Positions 5,250 to 55,609 of a stretch of 64,000 nucleotides of DNA are shown piece by piece. How positions within the stretch are numbered: the stretch's first letter is position 1; the number at the start of each line of letters is the position of its first letter. The position numbers and the translations under genes were made by a program. Origin of the DNA: Sporolactobacillus sp. THM19-2 (GTDB taxonomy: Bacteria; Bacillota; Bacilli; Bacillales; Sporolactobacillaceae); contig NZ_SEMC01000001.1 of NCBI RefSeq assembly GCF_004153195.1, positions 248,001 through 312,000 of the forward strand, written 5' to 3'. The notes below the pieces were generated by a model. That model was given only the letters and a program-made list of their open reading frames with translations, was not told the origin of the DNA and searched no databases.

Positions 5250-5275
5250 GCGGCAAGGGTTGCCGCTTTTTTTTT
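5250..5275 (+). terminator. Terminator after dnaI
   Basis: A 7-bp GC-rich stem (GCGGCAA with TTGCCGC) and three-base loop are followed by nine T. It closes the polA-to-dnaI gene group. Repeat copy A starts immediately after the T-run. Confidence 0.9.
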
Positions 5276-5488
5276 CCCGCATGAACGGGCAGGTCCACCT
5301 CCGGGTCATGCGGGTAAACGAATTGGCCGGGCAGGGGATACCTTGCTGTAAAATCCCGCCGGATTCAACAACGAATAATCCGATTCGTGGGGGATGCGCA
5401 GGCTAAAATGCGTACGTCCTATCGCAACGCCTGCACGAAAACGTCCTGTACGCTCGGGCTCCCCACTGATTGACGTTTCACTTTATTT
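5276..5488 (+). repeat. Dispersed intergenic repeat, copy A (full length)
   Basis: About 210 bases that align with 55397-55609 (copy B) and, in shortened form, with 45640-45738 (copy C). Shared blocks are CCCGC.TGAACGGGCAGGT at the left end, a GGGTCATG box, an AAACGAA box, two ACGTCCT boxes about 30 bases apart, and CTGATTGA near the right end. It has no convincing reading frame, as the copies differ by indels. It fills the gap between dnaI and ytxC. Confidence 0.85.
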
Positions 5489-45616: not shown

Positions 45617-45639
45617 AGATGAATATACGTTTATTTTAT

Positions 45640-45738
45640 CCCGCATGAAACGGCAGTGCTGCTTCAGGGTCAACGAACATGGCCGGGTGCAGGATCACTG
45701 CCCGTAAAACCCTCACTGATTGATGTTTTACTTATTTT
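45640..45738 (+). repeat. Dispersed repeat, copy C (internally deleted), overlapping the end of fbp
   Basis: Both ends match copies A and B (CCCGCATGAA at the left, CACTGATTGATGTTTTACTT at the right), with AACGAACATG and GGATCACTGCC blocks shared with copy B. The middle, including the two ACGTCCT boxes, is missing. The repeat runs through the last 20 or so codons and the stop codon of fbp. Confidence 0.8.
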
Positions 45739-47676
45739 GGAATATTTATATTTTAAAAGATCTTTAAGGATTAAGATCTGTTCTTTCAGCGCTTTGCCGG
45801 TATTTGTTTCTGCAACTTTTTTTCGACGCAGTTCACGGTCGACCAGCCTGCGGACGGACAGGACATCGGAACCGGTTCGCAGGACATCGGCTTTCGATGA
45901 AAAGTGCTGATGGGCGACAAGCTGCATACCGTAAGAGTTATAAAGAAGCGTGTATCCGGCGATCCCCGTCTTTGGCTGATAAGCTTTAGAAAATCCACCA
46001 TCAATGACAATCATTTTACCGTTTGCCTTAATTGGATTTTCTCCGTTTTTTTCTTCAACCGGTGTATGGCCGTTGATGATGTGCCCCTCATCTGGATCCA
46101 GATGGAATTCTGCCAATATCTTGCGGCAGACTCCTTCTTCAGCGCGCAGACGGTAATAGGGATTTTTCTTTTCCACATGCGTTTCTTTTTCACTGATAAA
46201 ATACCGTTCGAAGGTGGTCATTTCCCTTTTCCCGAAAAGTGATGAATTCTCACCTGTCCATAAATACCAGACCATGTCGGTTGCCAGATCATCCGTCTTC
46301 TCAGGGTGCGCGAAGCACTCACGCAGGTTATGTTCAAAAAGATCAAGCAGCTCTTTTCCTGCGTATGTTTTTCCTTCAATGGTCATCTTTTTCATACTGC
46401 CATCTTCGTTGAGCGGGATGCACCCGTGGATCAGCAGATTGCCGTTATATTTCAGATAAAGGCTGCCTTTTCTGACAAGAAACTGCATATGTCTGGCGAG
46501 TTTTTCAGAATGCTGCACAGAGAACAGCAGTTTATCAATAACTTTTTCTTCTTCATCGAGCAACCGTTCAGGATGTTCAGGGTCAATAGTGGAAAAACAG
46601 GTGTTCTTCAGCTTCCATGTTTTACCGCCCAGTTCAATGGTATCACGATTGTAATCTACTTTCTCCAGAACCAGACGGCGCTGCATTTGAAAATCTGGCC
46701 GGCGCTTAATAATTGGCATTTCCAGTTTAAACTGGATGATAGAGATAGCCTGATGCATCTTAGTAATCTGCAGGATCTCATTTTGGGTCAGCTGACCGTC
46801 ATCCGGTCCCAGTTTTGGCCGAAATGCCGGATTGTCATCATAGTATTTTTCTGCCAGATTGAGCAGCGGGATCAGATTGATTCCGTACACATCCTCAATA
46901 ATATCCAGATTATTATATCTGGCACATATGCGGAGAATATTGGCCAGGCAAACCTTTGATCCGGAAAAAGCGCCGATCCACAGGACGTCGTGGTTTCCCC
47001 ACTGGATGTCTACTGAGTGGTAATGCATCAGGGTATCCATAATCTTATCCGGATCCGGCCCCCGGTCATAAATATCGCCTACGACATGGAGATGATCGAC
47101 CACCAGTCGCTGAATGGTGTACGCAAGGCCAGTAATCAGTTTACCAGCTTCACCGAGTGACAGAATGCTCTGGATGATTTTCGCATAGTAGCTTTTTTTG
47201 TTGGAAAATTCATCGGTTTTATATAAGAGTTCCTCTGTAATATAGACGAATTGTTCAGGAAGGGCTTTGCGAACTTTGGAGCGGGTATACTTCGATGAGG
47301 CGAAAGCGACCAGACGAATCATTCGGGCAATCGTCTGACTGTACCACTGATTCAGTTCGTCTTCAGTTCTGATACTGCTTCTGATCAGTTTGAGTTTTTC
47401 CTCCGGATAATAGACGAGGACAGCAAACTCATTCATCTCTTCTTCAGACAGTTCATTCTGGAATAAATCCCTGATTTTCTGTTTCACATTTCCTGATCCG
47501 TTTCGGAGCACATGCTGGAACGCATGAAATTCGCCGTGCAGATCACTGACAAAATGTTCCGTTCCCTTTGGCAGGTTTAATATCGCCTCCAGGTTGATAA
47601 TCTCAGTAACGACTTTCTCTTCACAGTCATATTTCTCAGCAAGTAAATCAAGATACTTTTTATACTTTTTATCCAA
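45670..47676 (-). CDS. fbp: Fructose-1,6-bisphosphatase class III
   Basis: This enzyme catalyses the gluconeogenic step from fructose-1,6-bisphosphate to fructose-6-phosphate. The 668-residue protein is the Firmicute class III type with calcineurin-like metal motifs [24 protein letters not shown] and [11 protein letters not shown]. Translation starts at TTG 47676, seven bases after GAGGAGG. The last residues (about 20, ending DPAPGHVR) are encoded by repeat copy C, so the native C-terminus has been replaced. A perfect cre site lies in its leader. Confidence 0.96.
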
Positions 47677-55388: not shown

Positions 55389-55396
55389 TCTTTTTT

Positions 55397-55609
55397 CCCG
55401 CCTGAACGGGCAGGTCTGCCTCAGGGTCATGAGGGGAAACGAACATGCTCGGGTGGGGGGGATCACTGCCTGAAGCAGCCCAATGAATCCAACGAACAAT
55501 CAGGAGGGGATGCGTGCAGACTAAAAACGGGGACGTCCTGTTGCAACGCCCGCCCAAGCACGTCCTGCGCGCTCGAAGCCTCCCTGCTGATTGAAGCTTC
55601 ATTTTATCA
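55397..55609 (+). repeat. Dispersed intergenic repeat, copy B (full length)
   Basis: It aligns over its whole length with copy A (5276-5488), sharing CCCGCCTGAACGGGCAGGT, GGGTCATGAGG, AAACGAACATG, GGATGCG, two ACGTCCTG boxes and CTGATTGAAGCTTC. It lies inside the 3' untranslated region of the alcohol dehydrogenase gene, before the terminator at 55612. Confidence 0.85.

Follow-up and report, generated by a model that had tools for sequence, protein, structure and literature searches.

REP/REPIN elements with a RAYT are short, protein-less hairpin elements that are mobilized by a single-strand nuclease, and IS200/IS605 elements make no target duplication. In the part of the literature available here, IS200/IS605 elements are described as lying beside a T-rich pentamer, with subterminal palindromes and no terminal inverted repeats (PMC4227781), and as oriented with respect to replication because they insert into the lagging-strand template (PMC5371812, PMC6006769). 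The bcr1 repeats of the Bacillus cereus group are described in excerpts of three papers as folded, MITE-like sequences of 147 to 167 bp with a TTTAT motif and many, mostly chromosomal copies (PMC6542083, PMC3446304, PMC2267715). In the same excerpts, bcr1-type mobility is described only as possible site-specific recombination or as MITE-like (PMC6542083, PMC3446304, PMC2267715).

We analyzed a stretch of 64,000 nucleotides from Sporolactobacillus sp. THM19-2 (the window), in which a first-pass annotation had reported three related intergenic stretches with their shared blocks in one order and one orientation. That observation is borne out. We trained a covariance model (R1) on 59 elements that lie elsewhere, none of them in the window and a single one (L286) in the host genome; with a cutoff as loose as an E-value of 5, it hits three places in the window and no others (all R1 E-values are rough). 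An 18-base left-end pattern with up to 3 mismatches likewise matches only these three places, where 0.07 matches are expected, and 0 of 100 shuffles of the window contain three matches. At its left edge each copy has a T-rich pentamer, and its right edge falls within or close to TTTAT; the annotation had the right three places but began the repeat 5 bases too late and ended it 2 bases too far. The features are as follows, in window coordinates:

5271..5486, + strand: copy A, long form, 216 nt (R1 E 3.3e-7, model 1-158, full; left TTTTT, right TTTAT)
5396..5459, + strand: Bacillaceae-1-like insert of copy A with paired ACGTCCT boxes, limits approximate (alignment to copy B)
45635..45736, + strand: copy C, internally deleted, 102 nt, without the Bacillaceae-1 insert (R1 E 2.4e-4, both ends present; antisense to fbp)
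45673..45735, - strand: last 21 codons of the fbp frame, which are copy C read antisense (open reading frame 45670..47676, -)
55392..55607, + strand: copy B, long form, 216 nt (R1 E 3.3e-11, model 1-158, full; left TTTTT, right TTTAT)
55505..55571, + strand: Bacillaceae-1 RNA (RF01690) in the terminal hairpin of copy B (34.6 bits, model 1-67, full; L001 1616-1682)

Pfam agrees with the gene names proposed for the neighbors, dnaI, fbp, and alcohol dehydrogenase (DnaI, Firmicute fructose-1,6-bisphosphatase, and iron alcohol dehydrogenase). A position at gene 3' ends had been proposed for all three copies. Copies A and B are co-directional with the preceding gene, but copy C is antisense and overlaps the 3' end of fbp. 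The fbp stop codon (45670-45672) falls inside copy C, and Pfam FBPase_2 covers residues 7-642 of the 668 in the frame, the copy C-derived tail lying beyond the end of the match. A second strain, G010, shares copy A at the orthologous position (L222 versus L014).

The three copies belong to a large family. Used as the query in the genome-wide search suggested earlier, copy B returns 44 matching rows from the 3.0-Mb host genome. A consensus raises this to 56 rows, and of the 105 first-look candidates that it yields, 40 were scored. We read 42 copies in element orientation, A and B among them and some of them partial; the host copy number is at least 42 and may be near 100. Rather than three copies with no common boundary, the genome thus holds dozens, with a common left end, TTTAT-CCCGC.TGAACGGGCAGT, and a common right end, CCCCCACTGATTGAAGTTTCAC-TTTAT. 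The core element is 156-158 nt (TTTAT-CCCGC...GTTTCAC-TTTAT), which is too short to encode an enzyme, and its consensus has no terminal inverted repeats, the ends TTTATCCCGC and GTTTCACTTTAT not being inverted copies of each other (by eye). Measured host copies span 120-220 nt, with one cluster at 142-159 (short form) and another at 197-220 (long form), the long form carrying about 65 nt extra within the last hairpin. In the middle forms (L004, L020, L025, L035), the two GTCCTGT boxes abut, an arrangement expected from deletion between short direct repeats. The stretch first described as one old, dispersed element of about 210 bases is accordingly an old dispersed family, but one that consists of a mobile element of 156-158 nt and a separate Bacillaceae-1 insert.

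Two hairpins, P1 (GGGCAGT/ACTGCCC) and P3 (AATCAGTGGGGG/CCCCCACTGATT), are conserved and may act as DNA or as RNA. The fold alignment comprises 59 diverse short forms, the full-length ones obtained from 110 loci, and shows compensatory change in both helices, with 11 of 20 pairs changed on both sides. We counted 55 compensatory cells, compared with 9.6 +/- 2.5 after shuffling (0 of 500 shuffles reach 55) and 3-6 in slid controls; related sequences can inflate the shuffle test, and the slid controls are low as well. Similar motifs, TAAC and CTAA(C), lie just 5' of the hairpins in columns 13-17 and 118-122 of alignment A2, with TAAC directly 5' of P1 in 52 and CTAA directly 5' of P3 in 56 of the 59 A2 sequences; the right-hand CTAA overlaps three predicted pairs. 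In the host species both motifs tend to be GAAC, and the 16 of 42 host copies scored at both sites have G at both (12), T at both (3), or a different base at each (1). This motif pair may represent guide sequences.

The element is mobile, and insertion adds the element and one TTTAT, because sites occupied in one genome read through with a single TTTAT in its sister. When the joined flanks of copies in genome G237 were searched in sister genome G212, 5 of 11 sites read through in this way, three of them letter-clean (L291, L292, L305) and two continuous at the junction with changes nearby (L297, L307). The remaining sites hold another repeat (L259, L289), match approximately one flank only (L290, L293, L306), or are ambiguous (L298). 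In G212, a different repeat of about 150-300 nt, with ends like GTGTTCAAAAAGGTGAC / TTTTTGAAC, occupies or adjoins G237 element sites (L359, L361, L355).

TTTAT lies to the left of 27, to the right of 28, and on both sides of 25 of the 31 G237 copies. Flanking on both sides may mean a duplication or a right cleavage site borne by the element; mirrored variant pentamers occur in 0 of the 31 G237 copies and in one host copy (L011, TTTGAT on both sides). A double-strand, MITE-like element, moved by cut-and-paste by a DDE transposase in trans, would produce a true 5-bp duplication of TTTAT, and this matches the single TTTAT in empty sites, the TTTAT on both sides after insertion, and the variant pair of L011; bcr1-bcr3 are also called similar to MITEs in the available part of PMC3446304. 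We nevertheless regard this explanation as improbable, given the strict TTTAT target with no mirrored variants in G237, a consensus without terminal inverted repeats (by eye), the covarying subterminal hairpins, and the strong lagging-strand bias described below.

The element looks old and fixed in the host species. Between two host-species strains, 0 of 12 sites are empty and all 12 are occupied, one by a 75-nt stretch only; occupancy was judged by 75-177 nt between the flanks and, for L221, by element sequence beside one flank. The window copies are presumably now immobile. Tandem arrays, which share one TTTAT, differ between G010 and G000 by whole units (1 versus 2, 1 versus 2, and 3 versus 1), and a fourth array is longer in G010 by one shortened unit. 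A tyrosine recombinase acting site-specifically on folded single strands, as at integron attC sites, would account for both the shared TTTAT and the whole-unit changes, but ordinary recombination between direct repeats also explains the array changes, and we give this explanation only slight credence.

The flanks, when read, hinted at insertion beside terminators. Strong hairpins (-10 kcal/mol) precede 6 of 27 host copies versus 7 of 97 non-coding controls (p 0.035) and 3 of 31 G237 copies versus 6 of 204 non-coding controls (p 0.10); against all TTTAT sites, the values are p 0.016 (host) and 0.012 (G237), all four uncorrected. Rank tests of terminator hairpins are not significant (host p 0.08, G237 p 0.76-0.92), which gives no support to terminator targeting as a rule. 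Insertion at terminators is at best a mild preference that concerns a minority of copies.

Orientation relative to genes is random. The shared orientation noted in the window fails as a rule beyond it, the upstream gene being co-directional in 61 of 121 copies in three sets (15/28, 11/29, and 35/64); these counts rest on crude open reading frame calls for 131 copies, with 2 inside a reading frame and 8 at locus edges left out. Orientation relative to replication is biased in three genomes. The TTTAT strand is the lagging-strand template for 36 of 40 copies in G345, 36 of 39 in G181, and 27 of 36 in G093, or 99 of 115 in total (p about 1e-15), among the best-scored copies of the matches listed for these three genomes (G459, with 8 listed matches, is not among them). 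The counts omit five copies from undecided zones and treat pieces or tandem copies that lie within 700 bp as one; replication direction was taken from GC skew in twenty 8-kb samples per genome and, in G093, also from a first gene recognized as dnaA (L414, by eye). The pentamer itself is evenly distributed over the two strands in the non-coding sample sequence (377:376). Flanking genes agree with the element direction in 25 of 39 cases (20 G345 and G181 loci), which is too little to explain the replication bias. The host species (G010) has 29 of 46 copies on the lagging-strand template (p 0.14, not significant). The available part of PMC5371812 reports an orientation bias for transposons of other types as well.

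A replication bias combined with random gene orientation fits a folded single-stranded DNA used for mobility. It does not support a main role at gene 3' ends, either as a folded RNA or as a site bound by protein, the two possibilities that the annotation had raised; an additional role of the transcript is possible. An RNA explanation would hold that selection keeps the element at gene 3' ends because it functions in cis or as a small RNA, that the covariation reflects an RNA fold, and that Bacillaceae-1 is a CsrA-binding module. The predicted RNA fold of the consensus is indeed strong (z -5.2 and -6.1), B. cereus transcripts contain roughly half of the bcr copies, all families taken together (PMC3446304, in the part available), and the reverse complement of Bacillaceae-1 has been proposed to bind CsrA, with the strand called uncertain in the available text (PMC4333381). 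Random gene orientation, the restriction of the element within the genus to 2 of 15 genomes, each from the host's species, and the presence of Bacillaceae-1 in both orientations relative to the element make this explanation highly unlikely.

Because the element is short, lacks terminal inverted repeats, has covarying hairpins, and favors the lagging-strand template, we think it likely that it is a protein-less mobile DNA element, moved in trans by single-strand, replication-coupled insertion at TTTAT. We infer both the single-strand mechanism and the enzyme in trans; whether the agent is a Y1 enzyme is an even bet. In the proposed mechanism, the strand 5'-TTTAT-element-TTTAT-3' would be used as folded single-stranded DNA, and an enzyme acting in trans would move it in the manner of IS200/IS605 "peel and paste," with insertion at TTTAT mostly while that strand serves as lagging-strand template at the replication fork. 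In the host species, the element would have taken up a Bacillaceae-1 module in the P3 loop, giving the long form of about 216 nt; deletion between the two GTCCTGT boxes would then have given the middle forms, and other deletions would have given short copies such as C. The TTTAT at both ends could still be a true target duplication, unlike in IS200/IS605. Against single-strand insertion in trans stand the weak bias in the host species, the lack of an empty site between the two strains, and the lack of an autonomous copy.

The search for that autonomous copy covered 96 left ends in 169 loci, none of which has a right end 600-3500 bp away. None of 30 transposase loci, out of more matches listed, holds a Y1 TnpA with the element's ends, and G335 and G345 have no Y1_Tnp match; both genomes have many candidate copies, and G345 shows the strand bias. 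The host's sole Y1 transposase (C17) was rejected, as its ends differ (by eye). Transposase genes at L404, L397, L405, and L413, which we take to be RAYT-like, are flanked by their own repeats, e.g., GTGCCTGTCAC or GGGACAGGAAC. The gene at L404 lies about 450 bp from a truncated copy; its flanking repeats differ from the element, and we judged the proximity incidental.

The ACGTCCTGT motif that the first-pass annotation associated with intergenic elements of other Bacillales is that of the Rfam family RF01690, Bacillaceae-1. The same annotation had taken the ACGTCCT boxes as a sign that the element could be a folded RNA or a protein-binding site, and folded parts are indeed present, but the boxes belong to the Bacillaceae-1 insert and not to the core. 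Bacillaceae-1 lies on the element's strand in 5 of 17 host loci scanned. At the gathering score of 35 bits, Rfam has no match in the window, copy B being just below it and copy A lying outside the looser scan; L005 exceeds it (41.9), and L003 (33.0), L002 (27.5), and L022 (23.3) are the other matching loci. The long form L007 has no Bacillaceae-1 match, and most of the other non-matching scanned loci are short forms. Other Rfam families match over the element at chance level only and were dismissed.

Bacillaceae-1 is itself a separate dispersed repeat, found in 197 of 397 genomes of the order and lying mostly outside the element among the loci examined. R1 overlaps or adjoins it in 3 of 30 loci (L323, L344, L345; the best locus per genome), and L346 has a separate element copy near it, neither overlapping nor adjoining. 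Of 13 element loci picked for apparent Bacillaceae-1, 9 reach the gathering score, with 8 inserts forward and 1 reversed (L076). By reading, the host and L128 have the insert within the P3 loop, and other loci have it after CCCG(A) of the middle part. Because its direction and position vary among loci, the insert and the carrier element were probably joined more than once. Bacillaceae-1 also often occurs in tandem or within other intergenic repeats (e.g., GCGCC...CTAGCTCCAGCGCC), in both orientations (L320, L332, L341, and others of L318-L347).

Relatives in other Bacillales, which the annotation had suspected, exist in number. In the order, 91 genomes out of 397, from 47 of 136 genera, match a generic consensus of the short form (E 1e-10 or better). 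In the class as a whole, R1 reaches E 1e-5 in 46 of 398 genomes, and 31 of these belong to orders other than the host's (weakest 2.4e-7); these are genome counts by score, with rough E-values. The exact right-end pattern occurs in at least 119 stretches, and the 80 of them that were read all come from Bacilli, e.g., Niallia, Cytobacillus, Lysinibacillus, Sporosarcina, Oceanobacillus, and Peribacillus. Two further genomes of the host genus, G003 and G006, match the Bacillaceae-1 part only. Plasmids of Pseudalkalibacillus carry full-length or nearly full copies, one from Niallia covers 86% of the query, and a few others hold pieces; phage records have no match to the element, and B. cereus-group plasmid records have none to two versions of it. 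In one plasmid record labeled Klebsiella grimontii (L229), a stretch upstream of a gene for a CPBP protease matches the terminal hairpin part at 79%.

A wider reading, which we offer tentatively and think less probable than not, is that these are widespread, protein-less single-strand elements of several Bacilli orders, propagated at the replication fork by a nuclease other than a recognizable Y1 and carrying swapped RNA modules such as Bacillaceae-1. If that carrier reading is true, Bacillaceae-1 would be a repeat that hitchhikes on the element and not a small-RNA gene, and an Rfam small-RNA family would be redescribed as cargo. The analysis also unites, as one family, repeats carried by about a quarter of the genomes sampled in the order, and it offers a testable, replication-coupled mechanism for bcr1-type repeats. 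The literature searched, with the founding bcr1 paper outside it, yielded no published description of the element family, its strand bias, or its Bacillaceae-1 nesting.

Compared with known systems, the element resembles the Bacillaceae-1 RNA in the central 65 nt or so of the long form, which lie on the same strand in the host, but Bacillaceae-1 is only an insert here, and two related genomes match that part alone. It differs from a classical MITE in having no terminal inverted repeats (by eye). REP/REPIN elements are likewise short, protein-less, and hairpin forming, but REPs are 20-40 bp in the available part of PMC3733652, as opposed to 156-158 nt. With IS200/IS605 and their protein-less derivatives, the element shares the absence of terminal inverted repeats, subterminal hairpins, a left T-rich pentamer, and lagging-strand orientation; unlike them, it has TTTAT on both sides and no TnpA with matching ends among the 30 loci. 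In contrast to bcr1, described in the excerpts as restricted to the B. cereus group and with no replication bias mentioned there, it occurs in 47 of the 136 sampled genera of the order, the two being compared by description only. In its 156- to 158-nt core and its TTTAT ends (both in 25 of the 31 G237 copies), the element is like bcr1, and its kind, a protein-less mobile repeat of the bcr1-like type, is already known.
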